From positions 1 through 64,000 of the forward strand of contig JAEUNY010000173.1 of NCBI GenBank assembly GCA_016791005.1: a stretch of DNA of 64,000 nt, read 5' to 3'. This document shows, piece after piece, positions 1-12,798 of this stretch. Within the stretch, counting starts at the first letter, position 1. Each line of letters opens with the position of its first letter. Made by a program: the position numbers and the translations under genes. A model generated the notes under the pieces. It made no database searches. It saw only the letters and a list, made by a program, of their open reading frames with translations, and was not told where the DNA came from. The DNA comes from Zoogloeaceae bacterium (GTDB taxonomy: Bacteria > Pseudomonadota > Gammaproteobacteria > Burkholderiales > Rhodocyclaceae).

Positions 1-71
1 GCCCTGGCCTCACCACGGCGGGCGACGCCTCCTCGTACTCGCATTTGCGGCGCATCAATTACGACCGCTGA
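1..71 (+). CDS. 3' end of an unidentified gene of the nor cluster (partial)
   Basis: An open frame (codons starting at base 3) runs from the window edge to a TGA at 69-71 and ends in the residues HLRRINYDR. The next gene starts only 4 nt later in the same direction, so this is very probably the last codons of the preceding gene of the same operon. Given the nor context it could be a norB, norQ or other accessory gene, but 22 residues are too few to decide and the tail does not look like a NorQ C-terminus that I know. Confidence 0.5.
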   Translation, partial: PGLTTAGDASSYSHLRRINYDR

Positions 72-75
72 ACCG

Positions 76-513
76 ATGGCTATCCTAGGCGCCGTGACTC
101 AACAATCCCCGCGCTCCCCTGCCCCGGTCGAACCTGAGGCCGTCCCAGGCTTTGCACTGGCTGTGGCCGCAGAGGGGCTCTATCTGATCAACTTGATGAT
201 CGCCCCGGGGCTCGCCTTCGTGGCGCTGATGGTGCTGTGGGTGCGCCATCGTCACGCCGCGCCGGCGTTAGCGCGCTGCCATCTCGCTCAGACTTTCCGC
301 GCCAGCCTGTGGGCCGGCGGCCTGCTGATAGTGGCCAACGCAGCCATCATCGGGCTGGGGGGGTACCAATCGGCATCAACCTGGATCGTGGTAATCCTCT
401 ATTTCACCACCTGCCACGCCACCCTGATTTTTTTCGGCGCAATGGGTTTGGCACGGGCCCTGGCGGGCCGGCCCTATGTGTTTCCCCTCATCGGCAGCGC
501 TTGCGATGACTGA
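76..513 (+). CDS. Small integral membrane protein of the nor cluster (DUF4870/Tic20-like appearance)
   Basis: 145 residues with a proline-rich, soluble N-terminus (about residues 1-25) and three or four hydrophobic segments: about 33-55, 75-97, 102-125 and a short C-terminal stretch. The central His-Leu-Ala-Gln pattern near residue 68 and the ending PYVFPLIG loosely recall the DUF4870/Tic20-like family, but this is a visual resemblance only. It starts 4 nt after the preceding stop and its own stop overlaps the start of the polyferredoxin gene by 8 nt, so the two are translationally coupled. By position it probably helps assemble or supply electrons to the NO reductase. No catalytic motif is visible. 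Confidence 0.7.
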   Translation: MAILGAVTQQSPRSPAPVEPEAVPGFALAVAAEGLYLINLMIAPGLAFVALMVLWVRHRHAAPALARCHLAQTFRASLWAGGLLIVANAAIIGLGGYQSASTWIVVILYFTTCHATLIFFGAMGLARALAGRPYVFPLIGSACDD

Positions 514-1540
514 GGTGACCGCTTCCAGGCCCATTCATCACGCGGGACGGGGCGTGCCGCCGGCCGTCCCGTACGCCGCCGACAAAGCGCTTGGGGCGGA
601 TCGCCGGCAGCGGCTACGCTTGGTCATGCAGGCCGGATTCTTCATCCTGTTTGTTCTGGCGCCGGTGTTTAACCTGTTACGTTACGACCTCGTCGCGGGG
701 CACGCGTGGTTTTTGGGGATGGAATGGCGGGCCGGGCTGGAGGATTTTTCCGCTGGCAGGGTCAGCGCGTTGGCTGCCGCCGGCCAGGTTGTGGTGCGAG
801 TATTCTTGCCGATCTTGCTGGCTGGTGGGGTGCTCATCGGCGTCGCTTGGCGCTGGGGTCGCTTCTACTGTGGGTGGCTGTGCCCGCATTTTTCAGTGGT
901 CGAAACGATCAACGGACTGATGCGCCGAGCCAGCGGCAAGCCTAGCGTTTGGGAGACGAGACCCTTGTCGCCGCGCCTGCCTAATGGCCAGACCTTGCAG
1001 GTCGACGGGCGCTGGTGGTTCGTCACCGTGCCGCTGGCGGTGGCCTTCGCGTTCGTTTGGGCGGTGGTGCTGCTGACCTATCTGCTACCGCCCGGCGAGG
1101 TGTACTTCAATCTGCTGGCGGGCACGCCCACCCGCAATCAAGCGATTTTCATCACCGCCGGGACCGGGTTGCTTACGGTTGATTTTCTTTTCGCCCGCCA
1201 TCTGTTTTGTCGCTTTGCGTGTGCGGTTGGGCTGTTCCAGAGCCTGGCCTGGATGGCCAACCGCCAGGCTCTGGTGGTGGGCTTCGCGCGGGAGCGGGCC
1301 TCGGACTGCGCGGGCTGCGGTTCAGCCTGCGACTCTGCCTGCCCGATGCGCCTCAAGCCGCGCAACCTCAAGGCGGCCATGTTTACCTGCACCCAGTGCG
1401 TGCAATGTGTATCTGCCTGCGGCCAGACTCAGGCCAACAACCCGCGTGGACCGTTGCTGGCCTGGGTGGCGGGGGAAGCGGCGCGGGCCGCCGAGTCGCC
1501 TTCGCTTGCGCCATGGTCGGCCCGGAGGGGGCAGGGCTGA
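506..1540 (+). CDS. CcoG/NapH-like membrane polyferredoxin
   Basis: 344 residues from the ATG at 506; an in-frame upstream start at 476 lies deeper inside the previous gene and is less likely. There are about five membrane segments. Cysteine motifs are CGWLCPH at residues 122-128, CRFAC at 235-239, and two C-terminal ferredoxin-type clusters at 268-279 and 295-305. This is the layout of the CcoG/RdxA/FixG-NapH-NosR group of membrane [4Fe-4S] proteins, without the C-terminal Ig-like domain of full-length CcoG. Family members pass electrons at the membrane or reduce copper during oxidase assembly. Inside a nor cluster it may support maturation or electron supply of cytochrome-bc NO reductase (inference). 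The first cluster has an unusual spacing (see findings). Its stop shares one base with the next start (TGATG). Confidence 0.85.
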   Translation: MTEVTASRPIHHAGRGVPPAVPYAADKALGADRRQRLRLVMQAGFFILFVLAPVFNLLRYDLVAGHAWFLGMEWRAGLEDFSAGRVSALAAAGQVVVRVFLPILLAGGVLIGVAWRWGRFYCGWLCPHFSVVETINGLMRRASGKPSVWETRPLSPRLPNGQTLQVDGRWWFVTVPLAVAFAFVWAVVLLTYLLPPGEVYFNLLAGTPTRNQAIFITAGTGLLTVDFLFARHLFCRFACAVGLFQSLAWMANRQALVVGFARERASDCAGCGSACDSACPMRLKPRNLKAAMFTCTQCVQCVSACGQTQANNPRGPLLAWVAGEAARAAESPSLAPWSARRGQG

Positions 1541-2025
1541 TGGCCATCAACGATTTTGCTGTGGCCCGCGCCGTACACGTCCTGGCCGTCGTGTGGTGGA
1601 TAGGCGGTGTGGCTTTCGTTACCGCCACGCTGTTACCCGCCTGCCGGAGCCTGCCGAACCCGACCGAGCGGATCGCCGCTTTCCAACACCTGGAACATCG
1701 CTTCGCCACGCAGGCTCGCTGGGCGACCCTGCTGGCCGGGGCTTCAGGCTTCTGGCTGGTCCATCGCTTCAACCTGTGGGGTCGTTTCGCAGACCTTGCG
1801 AATGGCTGGTGGCTGGCTGCGATGGTGGCTGTCTGGTTGGTATTCAGCGTGATGCTGTTCTTGCTGGAGCCATTTGTACTGCCACGGCGCTTTGCCGAAG
1901 CGGTGGCCCGCGCACCGGCTGACACGTTCCGCCACATCGAGCGGGCGCACCGCATCCTGTTGCTGGCCAGCCTGATCACTGTGGCCGGCGCCGTGGCAGG
2001 CAGCCACGGTGGGTGGGCTTTTTAG
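1540..2025 (+). CDS. CopD-like four-helix membrane protein of the nor cluster
   Basis: 161 residues with four hydrophobic segments, about 8-30, 58-75, 88-110 and 138-155. The first carries HVLAVVWWIGG, typical of CopD-like/DUF2269-type membrane proteins, in which a helix-1 histidine and conserved Trp/Gly residues recur. The ATG at 1540 overlaps the polyferredoxin stop by one base. norD begins 9 nt downstream, so all these genes should be on one transcript. Function is not established. The resemblance to copper-resistance membrane proteins and the CcoG-like neighbour suggest metal or haem handling during NO reductase assembly, but this is inference. Confidence 0.75.
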   Translation: MAINDFAVARAVHVLAVVWWIGGVAFVTATLLPACRSLPNPTERIAAFQHLEHRFATQARWATLLAGASGFWLVHRFNLWGRFADLANGWWLAAMVAVWLVFSVMLFLLEPFVLPRRFAEAVARAPADTFRHIERAHRILLLASLITVAGAVAGSHGGWAF

Positions 2026-2034
2026 GGGACGCGG

Positions 2035-3861
2035 GTGGAAGAGTGGGTAGGTGGCTTGTGGCACCGATTCGTCACACGCGCGGCGCGGCGTGATTTTCCA
2101 GACGCGGCAGTCCGGCTGGAGCAGATGGAGCGCCTGGCCGGGGTCCTGTTCCGGGCTTTGGGAGGCGATCCGGGACTGCGTGTGGCGGCCGCGGCGGACG
2201 AGACCCACGGCGCCCGGCGACGCTGGCTGGCGCGCCTGGCCCACGTCGATGACACGGTGGCCCTGGCCCGCCGGGATGCGGAAACCCTCCGCCTGCCGCC
2301 GGAGATCGCGTGTTTTTCGGTGCCCGCGCTCAACCGAGACCTCTATCTCTGGCTGATCGCTCAGGCGGCGGAGATGACCAACGGCGGGGAATGGATAGTC
2401 TTGTGCCAACTCGCCACAGCGCGCACGTTGGCTCGCTACCCTGGATTTCGCCCGCGCTATGAGCGGCTGGTGGCGGCTACCCTGGCGCTGCGGATTGCGC
2501 CAGAGAAGCTACCCGCTGACGAGGCGGCGGCAGAAGCGGCAATCCGCATTGCCCTGGCACAGCCGGGCGCCGTGAGCGCCCTGCCGGCGGCGCGCCGCCC
2601 ACCCCAGCCGGTGTTGCTGTGGCTGTATCCGGGCCCGGCCGCAATTCCCGCAACGAGGCCGACCGATACACCCGAACCGCATGGCGACAGCGGCGCGGCG
2701 GAGCGGGGCGATGCCAGCGCACGGCGCCATCAGGCCCGCCGCGAGGACATGGCCGACGGTCGCAATCCGCTGATCCTGCCATTCCGGGCCGAAAGCCTCC
2801 TGTCGTTTGCTGAATACGTGAAGGTAAACCGCGGTCTCGATGAAGACCCGGATCCCGATGCCGGCAGGCTTGCCGACGATCTCGATGAGCTGGCGATCGC
2901 CCGCGATGGCAAGCGGGCCGCCTCCAAAGTTCGCTTCGACCTCGATTTGCCCTCAGCCGCGCAGGACGACTTGCCCCTGAGGGAAGGCATCCTGCTGCCG
3001 GAATGGGACTGGAAGAAACAGGTGCTCCTCAAGGACCAGTGCCGACTCACCGAGTTCGATCCACGGGATGCCCAGCCCTGCGCGCTCCCCGCCCGATTGG
3101 CGGCCCCGGCGCGACGCTTGCGCCGTCAATTCGAGGCCATCGTGCCGGGCCGGCGCTGGCTAAAAAATCAGCCCCAGGGCAGCGAACTAGATGTTGACGC
3201 GTGTGTGCGTGCGGCCGCCGACCGGCGCGCCGGCTCCCGCCACGCCGAGCCGGCCTATTTGAGTTGTGAGCGGCAAGAGCGGGATATGGCCTGCCTGCTG
3301 CTCGCCGATCTTTCCCTCTCGACCGACGCCTGGGTGGGCGCGGCGCGCGTGATCGACGTCATCCGCGACAGCCTGATGCTGTTTTCCGAAGCCCTAGCGG
3401 CAACCGGTGACCGCTTTGCGCTGTACGGATTTTCCTCGCGCCGGCGCGATCACATCCGCTTTTCTCGTATCAAGGCGTTCGGCGAAGCCTATGCTGACCC
3501 GGTGCGCGGCCGCATTGCCGCCCTTAAGCCGGGCTATTACACGCGCATGGGCGCGGCAGTGCGTCACGCTTCCGCGATCCTGGCTGAGGAACGGACGGCT
3601 GTGCGCGTGTTGCTGATCCTGTCGGACGGCAAGCCGAATGATCTGGATCATTACGAGGGCCGCTATGGCATCGAAGATACCCGGGCGAGTCTGGGCGACG
3701 CCCGGCGGCGCGGGCTGAAACCCTTCTGCGTAACCATCGACAAGGCGGGGGCGGGCTATTTGCCTCATCTCTTTGGCGTCGACGGCTACACCGTCGTGCG
3801 CCGGCCCGAAGACCTACCAAGCCGGCTGCCGGAACTGTATTCGCGCCTGACTGCGGGGTAA
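2035..3861 (+). CDS. norD: NorD, nitric oxide reductase activation protein (VWA domain)
   Basis: 608 residues. The C-terminal third is a von Willebrand factor A domain with a MIDAS metal site, DLSLS at residues 425-429, followed by an SDGKPND loop. The N-terminal part is helical, with a charged, low-complexity linker around residues 215-250. NorD works with the AAA+ ATPase NorQ as a chaperone pair that inserts the non-haem iron into NorB. norQ is not in the window and presumably lies upstream. The start is GTG at 2035 with AGGGGA at 2024-2029 as ribosome binding site; this site overlaps the stop of the previous gene. Length and domain order match the family. Confidence 0.93.
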   Translation: MEEWVGGLWHRFVTRAARRDFPDAAVRLEQMERLAGVLFRALGGDPGLRVAAAADETHGARRRWLARLAHVDDTVALARRDAETLRLPPEIACFSVPALNRDLYLWLIAQAAEMTNGGEWIVLCQLATARTLARYPGFRPRYERLVAATLALRIAPEKLPADEAAAEAAIRIALAQPGAVSALPAARRPPQPVLLWLYPGPAAIPATRPTDTPEPHGDSGAAERGDASARRHQARREDMADGRNPLILPFRAESLLSFAEYVKVNRGLDEDPDPDAGRLADDLDELAIARDGKRAASKVRFDLDLPSAAQDDLPLREGILLPEWDWKKQVLLKDQCRLTEFDPRDAQPCALPARLAAPARRLRRQFEAIVPGRRWLKNQPQGSELDVDACVRAAADRRAGSRHAEPAYLSCERQERDMACLLLADLSLSTDAWVGAARVIDVIRDSLMLFSEALAATGDRFALYGFSSRRRDHIRFSRIKAFGEAYADPVRGRIAALKPGYYTRMGAAVRHASAILAEERTAVRVLLILSDGKPNDLDHYEGRYGIEDTRASLGDARRRGLKPFCVTIDKAGAGYLPHLFGVDGYTVVRRPEDLPSRLPELYSRLTAG

Positions 3862-3975
3862 TGTCCCGCCGTGGGGCTCTTCCGCCATGGCGCCTAATCA
3901 AAAAACATCTTCGAAACGACTTGTGCGCACGGCCGAGGTTATGGAGACTTGAACTCCCCAATTTGAATCGGGGCC

Positions 3976-4701
3976 ATGCCGCCGCGCAGGTTCCCGCCGA
4001 GTTCCGTGGCCGCTGAATCCAAGATCGATATTCCTGGCTTGCTGAGCCGCCTGCCCCTTTTCAGTGCTTTGGGCGAGGCCGAACTCGCACAGATTGCAGC
4101 GGATACGGCCGAGCGCCGATTAATGCGCGCTGAAATGTTGTTCCAGCGAGGGGATGCGCCCAAGGGTTTCTATTACCTCGTTTGGGGCCAGATCAAACTG
4201 GCATTTTCGTCCCCTCAGGGCAACGAGAAGATCGTTGAACTGGTCGGGCCACTGCAAAGTTTCGGCGAAGCCCTGATGTTCATGAACCGGCCATATCCGG
4301 TTTTTGCCGAAGCCCTGGCCGACAGCATGCTGCTCCATGTTGGAGAGCGCGCGGTCCTCCATCAGCTGAGGCAGGATCCCGATTTTTCATGCAAGTTGCT
4401 CGCCGGCATGTCGATCCGCCTGCACAGCATGGTCCGCGATGTCGAGTCGTATTCTCTGCGCTCCAGCACCCAGCGCGTTATCGGCTTCCTACTTCAGCAG
4501 GCCCATGTGACACCTTGCTCCGACGGCACGCCCCAAACCATCGAACTGCCGGCCAGCAAGCAAGCCATTGCCTCCCGGCTCAACCTCACGCCAGAAACGC
4601 TATCGCGCATCTTTCACCAGCTTTCCACCTCCGGCCTGATTTCAGTCCAAGGCCGGTCCATAACGCTGATCGACACGGTAAAACTCGCCGTGCACGACTA
4701 A
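3976..4701 (+). CDS. Crp/Fnr-family transcriptional regulator, Dnr-like
   Basis: 241 residues: a cyclic-nucleotide-binding-type beta-barrel (about 20-135), a dimerisation helix (about 140-170) and a C-terminal winged helix-turn-helix (about 185-230, KQAIASRLNLTPETLSRIF). It lacks the N-terminal cysteine cluster of true FNR, so it is not an oxygen-sensing [4Fe-4S] protein. Its place directly after norD fits the Dnr/NnrR subgroup, which senses NO (through haem in Dnr) and activates nor and nir genes. The 114-nt gap after norD could hold its own promoter, but I found no convincing FNR/Dnr box there. A 4-bp GC hairpin (3956-3973) lies just upstream of the ATG. Naming it dnr rests on context. Confidence 0.85.
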   Translation: MPPRRFPPSSVAAESKIDIPGLLSRLPLFSALGEAELAQIAADTAERRLMRAEMLFQRGDAPKGFYYLVWGQIKLAFSSPQGNEKIVELVGPLQSFGEALMFMNRPYPVFAEALADSMLLHVGERAVLHQLRQDPDFSCKLLAGMSIRLHSMVRDVESYSLRSSTQRVIGFLLQQAHVTPCSDGTPQTIELPASKQAIASRLNLTPETLSRIFHQLSTSGLISVQGRSITLIDTVKLAVHD

Positions 4702-5718
4702 ACCGCGAAGGGTGGGGTACGAGGATTGGCGTTTAGGGGCCGGGGGCGGACCCTCCGTTGGCCAGCTACCGTTCACGCTTCTCGAAAAATGACTCCGCGT
4801 GCTGAGGTTTCCGCCGCCGGCAAAGTGTGCCGCGGTGTTGGATCATCGAGTCAGCACTATGTCCCTCCCGCCAGGCTGGCGCTGGGGTCAGGCTGCAACC
4901 TCCTCAAGATGTTCATGGCTATTTCAAACTAAACGGCAGCTACCCGCTACATTGGAGCCCGATAAGGTCCATCAGGTGAATGGCCGTTCAGGCCGAAGTG
5001 TTTCCATTGGACGTCGCCCAGTTGCCACCTCCTGAGCAGGGTGGAACTTGCCTCCCATCTCTGCACCATCCGGTAGCGAGCGTGGCTTTCGCAAGGATCG
5101 CCACCACATCTTTGGCCCCGGTTGGCAGGGAAAATACGATGCTGCACTAAGGCCTGCTGCCGATACACTGAGTTACCCCAAGCACCGCCATGCCAACGCG
5201 GTCTGAGCAGGGCCACTTGCTGTCATTGAGCGAGCCAGGTCATGCCACGCTAAGCACCCGCCGAAGCCCCTTGCAAGGCCGCGCTATCTAATGTGACGTC
5301 GGCCTCATGCCCTGGCCTGTATTTGTTACCAAGCACTGTGAGGGCTGAGATCGATACCAACATTTAGACCGGAGTTTTGGCCATGAATTGGGTTATGCGC
5401 TGGCCATGATTTGCCTCCAAACCCACAAAGCAGGCTAGAAAGCCCAATAAATTCAAGGATTCCGGCCTTTTTGTTGCCCTCAGCAGTCCATGCAATCTTC
5501 CCGCATTGGGGGTAGATTGCATGGCAATGACGTGAATCTCATCGGAGTCTTTAGACGTCATCCCGTCGGAGGACGAGGCAATCAGCGTTGACCGGTGGGC
5601 CTTACTCCCGAGTACGGTCGAGCCGTCGTCAGGCCTTGGTAAAAAGTTCGAAGCCTCGGGAAGGCGTCGAATAACTCTCGGTCTCCACCGCAGCGCAGCT
5701 TGATATCACAATGGCGTT
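4702..5718. other. Gene-poor, lower-GC spacer of about 1 kb
   Basis: No open frame here has a recognisable product. The possible frames are short (65-110 codons), lie on both strands and show no family motifs. GC content falls clearly: I counted 45% at 5401-5460 against about 70% in nearby genes. A perfect 10-bp inverted repeat lies at 5488-5497 and 5515-5524. The stretch separates the nor cluster from the aspA module and may be degraded horizontally acquired DNA. I could not identify a transposase fragment, integrase, tRNA or target-site duplication. Confidence 0.6.
5488..5524. repeat. Perfect 10-bp inverted repeat
   Basis: CCATGCAATC at 5488-5497 is matched exactly by its reverse complement at 5515-5524, with a 17-nt spacer. 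No T-run follows on either side, so it is not an intrinsic terminator. It could be a protein-binding dyad or a remnant of a mobile-element end. Confidence 0.5.
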
Positions 5719-5760
5719 CGGCTTTCCAAACGCACCCGGACCCGTTTATCCGGAAAACCG
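5719..5760 (+). promoter_or_regulatory. Candidate upstream activator (DctD) sites for aspA-dctA
   Basis: The half-site CGGCTTTCC at 5719-5727 and the imperfect palindrome CGTTTATCC/GGAAAACCG at 5743-5760 (7 of 9 positions symmetric) lie about 80-120 bp upstream of the sigma-54 promoter. The outer arms 5719-5727 and 5752-5760 are also complementary at 8 of 9 positions. Paired dyads at this distance are the usual arrangement for an enhancer-binding activator, and DctD is encoded in the same cluster. Assignment to DctD is inference. Confidence 0.5.
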
Positions 5761-5836
5761 AACGTAGCGCTGGTCGGCAAAATTTTTTCTGTCTATTTTT
5801 CAATGCACTAAGAAACTTTCTTCCGTCTCCGCAGGG

Positions 5837-5852
5837 TGGCACACGGCGTGCG
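5837..5852 (+). promoter_or_regulatory. Sigma-54 (-24/-12) promoter of aspA-dctA
   Basis: TGGCACACGGCGTGCG matches the RpoN consensus TGGCACG-N4-TTGCA, with the invariant GG (5838-5839) and GC (5850-5851) at the required spacing. The predicted start is near 5863, giving a leader of about 54 nt to the aspA ATG at 5917. DctB and DctD, a sigma-54 activator system, are encoded 2-5 kb downstream, which supports the call. Confidence 0.78.
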
Positions 5853-5916
5853 ATAGGGAGGGCATCCCGGTCCGCAAGGATCGGCCGGGAAACCCTAACC
5901 AAACACGGAGACATCG

Positions 5917-7359
<1,443 letters not shown>

Positions 7360-7387
7360 TCCGCGCCCACCCAACAAGGATACGACC

Positions 7388-8683
7388 ATGAAAGCTCATA
7401 AGTCTTCCTCGCTGATCCTCATCGCGCTGGTGCTGGGCATCGGCACCGGCTACCTCTTCAACATCACCTCCACGCCGGAGGCGGCCAAGCAGATCGCCGG
7501 CTACTTCGGCATCGCCACCGACGTGTTCCTGCGCCTCATCAAGATGGTCATCGCACCGCTGGTGTTCGCTACCCTGGTGTCGGGGCTCGCCAACATCGGT
7601 GACTCCAAGACCGTTGGCCGCATTGGCGCCAAGGCCATGGGCTGGTTCGTCGCCGCCTCGATCGGCTCGCTGCTGATTGGCCTGATCTTCGCCAACGCCT
7701 TGCAACCCGGTGTCGGCCTCAACATGCCGCTGCCCGAAGTGGGCGCCGCCACCAACCTGAAGACCGGAGCGCTGAACCTCGCCGACTTCATCACCCATGT
7801 CTTCCCCAAGAGCATCGTGGAAGCCATGGCCGGCAACTCGGTGCTGCAGATCCTCGTGTTCTCGGTGTTCTTCGGCCTCGCCCTGGGCCACCTCCACAGC
7901 CAGACCGCCCGCAGCCTGGTCGCCACCATGGACGATGTGGTGCACGTCATGCTCAAGGTCACCGACTATGTGATGCGCTTCGCCCCCGTCGGTGTCTTTG
8001 CCGCCGTGGCCGGCGTGGTCACCGTGCAGGGCATCGGCATGCTGGCGGTGTTCGGCAAGCTGTTGGCGAGCTTCTACCTGGCCCTCGCGGTGTTGTGGGC
8101 GGTGATCATCGGCGCCGGTTACCTGGTGCTCGGCAAGGAGGTGTTCCGCCTGCTCAAGCTGGTGAAGAGCCCCATGCTCGTCGGCTTCTCCACCGCCAGC
8201 AGCGAATCGGCCTACCCCAAGCTGATGGAGCAACTCGAAAAGTTCGGCGTAAAGAACCGCATCACCGGCTTTGTGCTGCCCCTGGGCTACTCCTTCAACC
8301 TCGACGGCTCCATGATGTACACCGCCTTCGCCGCCCTCTTCGTGGCCCAGGCCTACGGCATCCCCATGTCCCTGGGCGAGCAGGTCACCATGCTGCTGGT
8401 GCTGATGATTTCCAGCAAGGGCGTGGCCGGCGTGCCCCGCTCCTCCCTGGTCGTCGTGGCCGCCGTGCTGCCGATGTTCCACCTGCCGGAAGCCGGGCTG
8501 TTGCTGATCATGGGCATCGACCACTTCCTCGACATGGGCCGCACCGCCACCAACGTGCTGGGCAACGCCATCGCCACCACCGCCGTGGCCAAGTGGGAAA
8601 ACGCCATCGATCCGGTGTCCCACGCCTTCGACGACGAAGACGAAGCCCTGCCGGTGGCCGAGCCTCTGCCCCTGGCCGCCTGA
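7388..8683 (+). CDS. dctA: Dicarboxylate/amino acid:cation symporter (DctA/GltP family)
   Basis: 431 residues of the DAACS (SDF) family. It shows the hydrophobic N-terminal helices, the serine-rich re-entrant loop FSTASSESAYPKL near residues 270-280, the NLDGSMMY motif near 305 and the final helix with MGRTATNVLGN. It couples Na+ or H+ entry to uptake of C4-dicarboxylates or acidic amino acids across the inner membrane. I use dctA because of the sigma-54 promoter and the adjacent dctBD. NLDGSMMY, rather than NLDGTNIY, and the aspA partner leave aspartate/glutamate as an alternative substrate. AAGGA lies about 8 nt upstream of the ATG. A terminator follows at 8746. Confidence 0.88.
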   Translation: MKAHKSSSLILIALVLGIGTGYLFNITSTPEAAKQIAGYFGIATDVFLRLIKMVIAPLVFATLVSGLANIGDSKTVGRIGAKAMGWFVAASIGSLLIGLIFANALQPGVGLNMPLPEVGAATNLKTGALNLADFITHVFPKSIVEAMAGNSVLQILVFSVFFGLALGHLHSQTARSLVATMDDVVHVMLKVTDYVMRFAPVGVFAAVAGVVTVQGIGMLAVFGKLLASFYLALAVLWAVIIGAGYLVLGKEVFRLLKLVKSPMLVGFSTASSESAYPKLMEQLEKFGVKNRITGFVLPLGYSFNLDGSMMYTAFAALFVAQAYGIPMSLGEQVTMLLVLMISSKGVAGVPRSSLVVVAAVLPMFHLPEAGLLLIMGIDHFLDMGRTATNVLGNAIATTAVAKWENAIDPVSHAFDDEDEALPVAEPLPLAA

Positions 8684-8745
8684 TCCACCACGCCAAGCGT
8701 CCGGGCTGCCACGGCGCCCGGCCCCGCAAAGAAACCTCCCCTTTG

Positions 8746-8776
8746 GCCCGACCCCTCAAAAGGTCGGGCATTTCTT
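8746..8776 (+). terminator. Intrinsic terminator after dctA
   Basis: The 8-bp stem GCCCGACC (8746-8753) / GGTCGGGC (8762-8769) is followed by ATTTCTT. It closes the aspA-dctA unit. The next start codon is only 13 nt after the stem. Confidence 0.75.
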
Positions 8777-8782
8777 CCCCAT

Positions 8783-9544
8783 ATGCCCTTCGATCCCGTT
8801 CTGCTTGGTAGCGTCGCCTTCTTCGCCGGCATCGTCGATGCCGTGGTCGGCGGCGGTGGTCTGATCCAGGTCCCGGTGCTGCTCGGCCACTTTCCGAATG
8901 CCTCGATCCCCACCCTGTTCGGCACAAACAAGGTTTCCAGCATCGCCGGCACCGGGGCGGCGATGTGGCGCTTCACCCGCTCTGTGCCGATTCCCTGGCG
9001 CATCGTGCTGCCGGCGGCGCTGATGGCCTTGGCCGGCGCGTGGATCGGCGCCGCCATCGTCGCCTGGCTGCCGCGGGAGGCCATGAAGCCGCTGGTGCTG
9101 GTGCTGATGATCGCGGTTGCCTTCCAGACGTTCCGCCGCAAGGATTTCGGCCACGCCGCCACGCGCGAGGTGAGCGCCGCCGACCGCCCGCGCGCGGTGG
9201 CCTTCGGCGGCGCCATGGGCGTCTATGACGGCTTCTTCGGTCCCGGCACCGGCAGCCTGCTGATCTTCGGCTTCGTGCGCCTGTTCGGCATGGATCTCTT
9301 GCGCGCCTCCGCTAGCGCCAAGGTCATCAACGCCGCCACCAATGTGTCGGCCATCGCTTTTTTCGCGAGCCACGGCCCGCTACTGTGGTCGGCGGGGCTC
9401 CTGATGGCGGCCTGCAATCTGGTCGGCGCTCAAGTTGGCACCTGGCTCGCCCTGCGCCACGGCACTGGGTTCGTGCGCAAGGCCTTCCTGGTCGTGGTAC
9501 TGGTGCTGATCGCCAAGCTGGCGTGGGAACTCCTGCCCTCCTGA
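8783..9544 (+). CDS. TauE/SafE (YfcA-like) membrane permease
   Basis: 253 residues with about eight hydrophobic segments. The N-terminal repeat has FFAGIVDAVVGGGG and the second repeat begins around GVYDGFFGPGTGS; these paired glycine-rich motifs define the TauE/SafE (DUF81) family. Members export or import small anions such as sulfite, sulfoacetate or other organic acids. The substrate here is unknown. The ATG at 8783 has no clear ribosome binding site and lies immediately after the dctA terminator. A later start would remove the first helix, so I keep this one. It sits between dctA and dctBD, which suggests a role with organic anions (inference). Confidence 0.85.
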   Translation: MPFDPVLLGSVAFFAGIVDAVVGGGGLIQVPVLLGHFPNASIPTLFGTNKVSSIAGTGAAMWRFTRSVPIPWRIVLPAALMALAGAWIGAAIVAWLPREAMKPLVLVLMIAVAFQTFRRKDFGHAATREVSAADRPRAVAFGGAMGVYDGFFGPGTGSLLIFGFVRLFGMDLLRASASAKVINAATNVSAIAFFASHGPLLWSAGLLMAACNLVGAQVGTWLALRHGTGFVRKAFLVVVLVLIAKLAWELLPS

Positions 9545-9589
9545 GGCCACTCGCCGCATAATCCGGAAATCCGAACGACCCCGACGCCC

Positions 9590-11460
9590 ATGCCCACCCC
9601 GCGTAAACGCTCCCGCCTCGCTCTCCAGTTGCTGGCCTTCGGCCTGCTGGTGGCGGGCACGGCGTGGCTGGCCTTCCGCGTCAGCCTCGCCACTGGACTG
9701 GCCGAGCTGCAAGTCACCGGCCGCCATCGTTTGGATCTCTACACCTCGAGCCTGGAATGGGAGATCGACAAGTACGCCTATTTCCCGACCACGCTGGGCC
9801 TGGAGCGGGACGTGGTGAAGCTCCTCACCACGCCGGCCTCCACCCCGGCCGAGATCGAGGTGGTGAACCAGTACCTCGAACAACTCAACGAGCGCGCCGG
9901 TACCTTTTCGATTTACGTGCTGAACACCCAAGGCCAGGTGGTCGCCACCAGCAACTGGCGCCGCCCAGACAGCTTCATGGGCGAGGATCTCGCCTTCCGC
10001 CCCTACTTCCGCCAGGCCATGGAAAACGGCAGCGGTCGCTTTTTCGGCATCGGCACCACCCGCGGCGAACCGGGTTACTACCTCGCCTCGGCCCTCACCG
10101 ACGCCCGCGGCACGGTGGGCGTGGCGGTGGTCAAGGTGGGCCTCACGCAACTGGAAAAATCCTGGGGGACGGCGGAAGCACCGGCCCTGGTGGCGGACGA
10201 AAACGGCGTCGTGATCCTGGCCTCGGTGCCGGACTGGAAATTCACCACCCTCAAGCCCCTGGACGAATCCACCCGCGGCGCCTTCGATCGCACCCAGCAG
10301 TACAACCGCCGCGCCCTGCGCCCCCTCGGCGTGGAAGAACGCGCGGAACTCGACCACGGCGCGCGTCTCGTTCACCTGCCGAAGACCGGCGCAAATGTGG
10401 TGTCCATCATTCCCGTGTCGGGCGACTTCCTGGCCCAAACCCAGCCTCTGCCCGGCACGCCGTGGAGCATTTCCGTGTTTTCCCATCAGGACCCGGTGCG
10501 CGAACTCGCCACCAGCCGCGCCGCCCTGGCCGGTGCCGGCGCCGCGCTGCTCTTTATCGTTGGTGTAATGCTCAACCAGCGCCGCCGCCACCTCAAGGAG
10601 CGCCTCGCCGCCCGCGACGCTCTGCAGCGCGCCCACGACGAACTGGAACGCAAGGTCGAGGAGCGCACCCGCGAACTCTCCGACACCAACACCCGCCTGC
10701 AGGCGGAGGTGGTCGAGCGCACCCGCGCCGAACGCACCCTGCGTGAAGCTCAGGACGAGCTCGTGCAGGCCGGCAAGCTCGCCGTGATCGGCCAGCTTTC
10801 CACCGGCGTGGCCCACGAACTCAACCAGCCGCTGGCCGCCCTGCGGACGCTCTCCGACAACACGCGCAAGTTCCTGGAGCGGGGCGACCAGGCCACCGCT
10901 ACCGGCAACCTGGTCCGCATCGCCGAGTTGGTGGACCGCATGGGCCGGCTCACCAGTCAGCTGAAGTCCTTCGCCCGCAAGTCCAGTGGCGAGGCTCAGG
11001 CGGTGTCCCTCAACAAGGCGCTGGACAACGTGCAGTTCCTCCTCGAACAGCGCCTCAAGCGCGCCGGCGTCAACGTCAGCCTTGATCTGCCGCCGGATGA
11101 CCTGCAAGCGTGGTGCGACGCCAACCGCCTGGAGCAGGTGCTGGTGAACCTCTGCGGCAACGCCCTGGACGCCATGGCCGGCCAGCCCGAAGTCGCGCTG
11201 GATATTTCCGCCCGACGCGAGGGCGAGCACATCGTCATCCAGGTGCGCGACCACGGCCCCGGTTTGAGCGAGGCGGCGCAGTCGCGTCTCTTCGAGCCCT
11301 TCTTCACCACCAAGGAAGCCGGCCTCGGCCTCGGTCTGGGACTCGCAATTTCCGCCGGCATCGCCCGCGACTTCGGTGGCAGCCTGGGTGGCGCCAACCA
11401 CCCCGAAGGCGGCGCCGTGTTCACCCTCGACATCCCCGCCGCCCCCGGAGGGCCGACGCC

Positions 11461-11464
<4 letters not shown>
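9590..11464 (+). CDS. dctB: DctB, C4-dicarboxylate sensor histidine kinase
   Basis: 624 residues. TM helix 1 is at about 8-28, followed by a periplasmic double-PDC/Cache sensor of about 260 residues, and TM helix 2 at about 308-325. A coiled coil with KVEERTRELSDTN (about 340-385) leads to the HisKA domain with HELNQPLAALR (phospho-acceptor His409) and a C-terminal HATPase with NALDAM, DHGPGL and GLGLGLAIS boxes. This is the DctB architecture: external succinate, fumarate, malate or aspartate binds the PDC domain and controls DctD phosphorylation. Its stop overlaps dctD by 4 nt (ATGA). It is probably transcribed with dctD from a promoter after the dctA terminator. Confidence 0.93.

Positions 11465-12798
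<1,334 letters not shown>

Follow-up and report, generated by a model that had tools for sequence, protein, structure and literature searches.

A membrane polyferredoxin gene associated with one large cNOR clade and mostly encoded between norQ and norD

The second gene (ORF2) of the window, i.e., the whole 64,000-nucleotide stretch of Zoogloeaceae DNA analysed here, encodes a membrane polyferredoxin. We read it as dedicated to one large clade of cytochrome-c-type NO reductase (cNOR); what could be shown computationally is its co-occurrence with norB, its position between norQ and norD, its 12 invariant cysteines, its unity as one family and its repeated secondary loss. By co-occurrence and by cluster position across lineages, ORF2 qualifies as a cNOR-dedicated accessory gene. 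cNOR is a main source of biological N2O, and from its position and strict conservation ORF2 would be a dedicated factor in the assembly of this enzyme. The occurrence of ORF2 between the genes for the FeB-insertion chaperones makes the question of how cNOR is supplied with its non-haem iron directly testable. The gene was passed over by the nor-cluster descriptions that we found in the literature, yet it is present in many denitrifiers; it is missing from the model cluster, norCBQDEF of Paracoccus.

At the start of the window, three overlapping genes precede norD, just as a first-pass annotation of this DNA had described. ORF1 (76–513, + strand) encodes a small membrane protein of 145 residues with four predicted helices, similar to DUF4870/Tic20; ORF2 (506–1540, +) encodes 344 residues belonging to the NapH/CcoG superfamily, in a subfamily of its own; ORF3 (1540–2025, +) encodes a 161-residue membrane protein with a subthreshold resemblance to CopD and UPF0093 (HemJ). 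Taking the ATG at 506 as the start of ORF2, whose longest frame begins at 476, gives an 8-nt overlap with ORF1 (for which a GTG at 94 is an alternative start), while the stop codon of ORF2 and the start codon of ORF3 share 1 nt (TGATG). A 9-nt gap separates the stop of ORF3 from the GTG start of norD (2035–3861, +), which codes for a VWA-domain protein, the partner of NorQ in FeB insertion; the norD homologues in relatives are full-length, 53–72% identical, and adjoin norQ. Located 3' of norD is a gene for a Crp/FNR-family regulator (3976–4701, +) with cNMP-binding and Crp HTH domains, and such a gene directly follows norD in many relatives as well.

Because base 1 of the window is also the first base of its contig (C87), the genes 5' of ORF1 (norCBQ) are not visible in it, and no norB was found anywhere in the assembly of this genome (180 contigs, 93% complete). 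ORF1 and ORF2 are not chance frames, since orthologues of both occur in dozens of other genomes, with the gene order mostly kept. A search of positions 1–12,000 against Rfam returned zero matches, and a scan of the window for FNR boxes yielded no more than chance. Further 3' of the regulator (5917–9544), we recognized by eye genes resembling those for an aspartate ammonia-lyase/fumarase, a dicarboxylate symporter and a TauE/SafE protein.

In relatives, the usual order is norC-norB-norE(COX3)-norF(COX4_pro)-norQ-ORF1-ORF2-norD, often with the Crp/FNR gene next. ORF2 orthologues, about 55–75% identical, occur in 23 of the 61 relatives' genomes (the window's own included), and identity falls sharply from these to other polyferredoxins. 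ORF2 shares a stretch with nor genes in 21 of the 22 other relatives that carry it; for example, in the genus-mate G001 a single contig holds ORF1-ORF2, norQ and norB, and ends just past ORF2. The sole exception is G036, whose norCB and norD are on contigs other than the one bearing the isolated ORF1-ORF2-ORF3. A gene for NorQ, NorD or NorB adjoins ORF2 in 29/29 class loci read and in 16/16 phylum loci read, 12 of the latter from outside the class, and in most loci of both this class and another class of the phylum ORF2 sits between norQ and norD. The order can vary, as in Amphritea (norB-ORF2-norE-norF-norQ-norD), with ORF2 still within the cluster. Plasmids of Sphaerotilus sulfidivorans, Thiothrix fructosivorans and Amphritea japonica carry the gene too, annotated merely as '4Fe-4S binding protein'.

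Searching for co-occurrence with nor genes had been proposed in the first-pass annotation, and for ORF2 the outcome was strongly positive. Of 368 genomes sampled evenly across the class, not counting the window's own, 41 contained ORF2, and 40 of these had a norB of the same clade (clade A). The ORF2-bearing exception is an 87%-complete genome in which the gene lies beside norD, ORF1, norQ and norF (L142). A matching norB was unaccompanied by ORF2 in 16 of 56 class genomes, a few of which may represent assembly gaps. ORF2 was found in none of the 21 class genomes having solely other norB types, and in one of the 291 without a norB match, sited in a nor cluster. Fisher's test of the association gives p ~3 × 10–39, a value that overstates independence, the genomes being related. 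All 59 ORF2 carriers in a tree of 105 NorB sequences fall within one clade of 80 (0 among the 25 outside it), and the ORF2 label changes 15 times on this tree, against a mean of 34.6 with shuffled labels. ORF2 looks to have had one origin, ancestral to the NorB clade, and to have been repeatedly lost, although some absences may be assembly gaps.

The predicted ORF2 product displays four hydrophobic helices, two membrane CX3C motifs, two ferredoxin-like four-Cys sets and a Fer4_5 domain (E = 2.9 × 10–10; 40.4 bits against a cutoff of 22), features that place it in the NapH/CcoG superfamily. Twelve cysteines, H128, H232 and M281 are invariant in 71/71 homologues. The two histidines adjoin the membrane CX3C motifs (H128 in CGWLCPH, H232 in ARHLFC) and are absent from NapH, CcoG and the other polyferredoxins compared; the second motif of ORF2 also lacks the usual proline. 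Judging from the charged loops and the positive-inside rule, the Cys motifs are predicted to be all cytosolic. In a tree, 55 ORF2 sequences lie on one side of the branch leading from nine outgroup polyferredoxins (SH-aLRT 91, below the starred level). ORF2 is best called a distinct subfamily of the known superfamily. Its structure model averaged a pLDDT of 66, the ferredoxin part being of low confidence, and the Foldseek matches were noise, so we set the model aside; a sequence search of the PDB returned nothing credible.

The initial description of ORF2 as CcoG/NapH-like holds as a likeness, but the protein belongs to neither family. Against the CcoG model (TIGR02745) it scores 34.7 bits, whereas the cutoff is 316.7 and true CcoGs reach 523–527. 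Nor is there room for the C-terminal periplasmic Ig-like domain of CcoG, as only 39 residues follow the last Cys and the total length is 344 versus 493–499 residues; YccM-type homologues also do without this domain (PMC7558416). An assignment as NapH was likewise rejected (40.6 vs 213 bits for TIGR02163, 31.4 vs 234 bits for PRK09477), as was the idea of a nap-cluster gene accompanied by napG, since ORF2 is found in nor clusters throughout. With CcoG/FixG/RdxA, ORF2 shares the make-up of a membrane polyferredoxin, two membrane Cys motifs plus a ferredoxin-like part; each of the 23 ORF2s aligned gives a weak match to the CcoG profile, and the gene is likewise encoded with accessory genes of a haem-copper-superfamily enzyme. 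However, it has CPH and CAV where CcoG has CPQ and CPY, and it is linked to norQD; one genome (G027) carries both ORF2 and a separate ccoG. NapH and MauN are of similar length (287–309 residues) and share the four helices, the two CX3C motifs and the C-terminal Cys sets, but ORF2 differs from them in its second motif (CX3CA rather than CX3CP), in having no napG partner and in not occurring in nap clusters. As for NorQ and NorD, the resemblance is that of accessory genes in the same cluster, ORF1-ORF2 mostly lying between the two; these form an AAA+/VWA pair that accompanies every cNOR type, whereas ORF2 is an Fe-S membrane protein found with one cNOR clade only.

The small membrane protein encoded by ORF1 can be described as DUF4870/Tic20-like. 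The window's own ORF1 had no Pfam or NCBIfam match, DUF4870 included; among 39 aligned orthologues, 19 match DUF4870 (PF09685; gathering score 25 bits) weakly, with E values up to 1 and a best of 1.2 × 10–4. Its AlphaFold model (pLDDT 92) has the same four-helix arrangement, with chloroplast Tic20 as top Foldseek match (E = 0.22, probability 0.85), and superposes on Tic20 with a Z of 8.0 over 113 residues, level with unrelated four-helix bundles. The PDB sequence search for ORF1 found nothing. A conserved His had made us consider a haem protein, an idea weakened once the DUF4870/Tic20 similarity emerged. ORF1 is also neither NorE nor NorF; norE (COX3) and norF (COX4_pro) are present besides, 5' of norQ. 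Among loci with ORF2, 15 of 22 in the family and 20 of 29 in the class also have ORF1; the gene is absent from the other 7/22 family loci and present in 9/21 norB-bearing loci without ORF2. The co-occurrence thus extends to ORF1 in a less strict form, and because each gene is found without the other, the two are separable and need no obligate complex.

ORF3 behaves differently. The CopD label given to it initially did not hold, in that the window's ORF3 had no match listed to CopD (PF05425; gathering score 32.1), for which homologues scored 24.8 and 31.8 bits, and its score for UPF0093 (HemJ, PF03653) was 20.1 bits against a gathering cutoff of 34.2. It does recall CopD/HemJ in its four-helix size, its conserved His and a W-x-GG in helix 1, with H13, H137 and H156 invariant in seven homologues, but it lies next to nnrS/sirB or other N-oxide genes and not to copC or genes of haem synthesis. 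ORF3 stands with ORF1-ORF2 in two genomes only, the window's (G000) and G036, and is absent from the other ORF2 loci read; the ORF2s of these two genomes and of G001 branch together. Homologues elsewhere are often beside nnrS (G047, G216, G327, G207, G121, G267) and/or sirB; the genes of G121 run norD-nnrS-ORF3, ORF3 is close to norC in G232, and in G311 a homologue comes after a narHJI-like set (gene names at locus L252 were assigned by eye). Only in the window, G121 and G232 do homologues lie at nor genes, plus G036 with ORF1-ORF2; the others are elsewhere. A search for related loci with ORF3 gave just two. What ORF3 seems to accompany recurrently are N-oxide genes, not ORF1-ORF2; it is a lineage-specific addition outside the conserved unit.

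Accordingly, the tight coupling of all three genes noted in the first-pass annotation is general for ORF1-ORF2 and does not extend to ORF3. Of the dedicated NO reductase unit that it proposed, what stands is a cNOR-associated two-gene core, ORF1-ORF2, whose members are separable; ORF3 drops out as a general member, its homologues being mostly away from nor genes.

What might ORF2 do? The reading that we prefer, with evenly divided confidence, is that of a dispensable, cytosol-facing assembly reductase, CcoG-like in its action, which would aid NorQD-dependent FeB insertion, ORF1 and ORF3 being separate from it. The Fe-S domain and the two Cys/His motifs would lie on the cytosolic side, where NorQD acts on NorB; from there ORF2 may pass electrons from a donor to non-haem iron or to a partly built di-iron site, and this reduction would enable NorQD to load Fe(II) at FeB and keep it there. 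ORF2 would be helpful rather than essential. ORF1, as a Tic20/DUF4870-type protein, might independently assist the assembly of the membrane subunits, and ORF3 would be a separate protein, probably linked to the NO response, recruited in the window's lineage. An assembly-stage reductase fits best because ORF2 is a predicted cytosol-facing Fe-S protein encoded between norQ and norD. The near-complete association with clade-A norB, the confinement of ORF2 carriers to one NorB clade and the two histidines particular to ORF2 also speak for it.

The literature provides precedents for several parts of this scheme, and also reasons for caution. NorB receives its FeB through NorQ and NorD, which act from the cytosolic side, the iron being thought to derive from free Fe2+ or from chaperones (PMC9976466; PMC13036017), and CcoG is an assembly reductase for cbb3 oxidase, a sister enzyme in the haem-copper superfamily (PMC7558416). 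In vitro, Cu(II) is reduced by CcoG and Fe(III) is not (PMC7558416), which counts against this scheme. FeB insertion as such needs no ORF2, since Paracoccus cNOR was matured in E. coli with NorQ and NorD as sole accessory proteins (PMC9976466). Also against a role in maturation are the 16/56 genomes whose matching norB goes without ORF2, and the G036 trio, which is not beside norD. The cytosol, moreover, is normally reducing, so that the need for a special reductase is not obvious. Given that CcoG spares Fe(III), that Paracoccus cNOR matures without ORF2 and that ORF2 is often lost, its role is probably conditional. A more specific proposal, which we regard as rather doubtful, is that ORF2 works specifically with NorQD, as a ferric reductase that also delivers the iron, with CX3CPH and HxxCxxxC forming a Cys/His iron site that gives Fe(II) to FeB. 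If true, such delivery would be the iron counterpart of the copper role of CcoG and part of the iron supply for cNOR maturation.

The chief rival, in our estimate unlikely, places ORF2 (possibly with ORF1 or ORF3) in catalysis, as a quinol-oxidizing or ferredoxin-linked electron supply to NorC/NorB. There are parallels, as NapGH serves Nap and NosR is thought to serve N2O reductase; NapH and NosR belong to the same superfamily as ORF2, and the invariant His residues of ORF3 could bind haem. However, cNOR draws its electrons from cytochrome c on the periplasmic side (and was so assayed in PMC13036017), whereas the Fe-S domain of ORF2 is predicted to be cytosolic. ORF2 has no conserved napG-like or cytochrome partner gene, its loci can lack ORF1 and can lack ORF3, and most of them place it with norQ/norD rather than with norCB. 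Position and predicted topology favour maturation over electron supply. That position, mostly between the insertion chaperones, argues for assembly also when set against another role that we deem improbable, namely that ORF2, instead of taking part in the initial maturation, re-reduces or repairs the di-iron site, or shields NorB assembly from damage by NO or oxygen; conditional usefulness of this kind would suit the repeated loss of ORF2, and nnrS, an NO-stress gene, is sometimes nearby (Thiothrix plasmid; G121).

The remaining explanations fare worse. In favour of a general CcoG/YccM-type metal reductase or housekeeping gene hitchhiking in nor clusters are the shared superfamily, the fact that each core gene can be lost, and G036, where ORF1-ORF2 lie apart from norD. 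Such a general role, however, would leave ORF2 copies without cNOR, and the single copy among the 291 sampled class genomes with no norB match is in a nor cluster of the 87%-complete genome; given this distribution, we consider a general reductase very unlikely. That ORF1, ORF2 and ORF3 make up one three-subunit complex for NO reductase is suggested by their overlap in the window and by the recurrence of the trio in G036, where ORF2 groups on the tree with that of the window. Yet no other ORF2 locus read contains ORF3, and ORF1 is missing in 7/22 ORF2 family loci and present in 9/21 norB loci devoid of ORF2, so this scarcely credible arrangement is already contradicted as a general rule.

Our literature search found no paper naming or testing ORF1 or ORF2, and the first-pass annotator's unawareness of a defined function is borne out, as we found no published function for either gene. 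Traces of them may be present in published numbering. In Dechloromonas aromatica, norD is VIMSS582097 and norQ is 582100 (PMC2907700), a numbering from which we infer two unnamed genes in between that would fit ORF1/ORF2. In NO-reducing enrichments, a single locus tag is passed over between norQ and norD in each of the two main organisms (PMC10390337), and the skipped tag, by its number, would also fit ORF1/ORF2. A paper on Accumulibacter mentions 'ccoG' in the figure legend of denitrification loci, in genomes without norBC (PMC6446978).

Some further features of these loci were observed in passing. The nor genes of G036 are scattered, with norCB beside nap genes, a lone norD in the vicinity of CRISPR-associated genes, and ORF1-ORF2-ORF3 forming a unit of their own (the loci concerned being L088 on C81, L089 on C37 and L045 on C86). 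In G314 (L136:1813-2496, – strand), a probable ORF2 relic, the visible trace of one loss, lies between ORF1 and norD, as a short frame fusing N-terminal and C-terminal pieces; in G020 (L083:7623-8696), the ORF2 slot between ORF1 and norD is taken, by eye, by a small antitoxin-like gene on the opposite strand. Between norQ and ORF1, G025 has a gene for a DUF2189 membrane protein (L082:10542-11291, Pfam match) and the genus-mate G001 a gene resembling it (L034:2506-3237). Some nor clusters contain a second, divergent ORF1-like gene (L037:14304-14750; L117; L130; L137; L141), and in G425 (L141) such an ORF1-like gene adjoins ORF2, which lies inverted between norB and norE. Finally, an ORF3 homologue repeatedly comes after nnrS, and in two cases a sirB-family gene comes next (L078:7076-9146; L251:5429-7605; L247:8328-10036); nnrS, the ORF3 homologue and sirB possibly form an NO-response membrane gene set.
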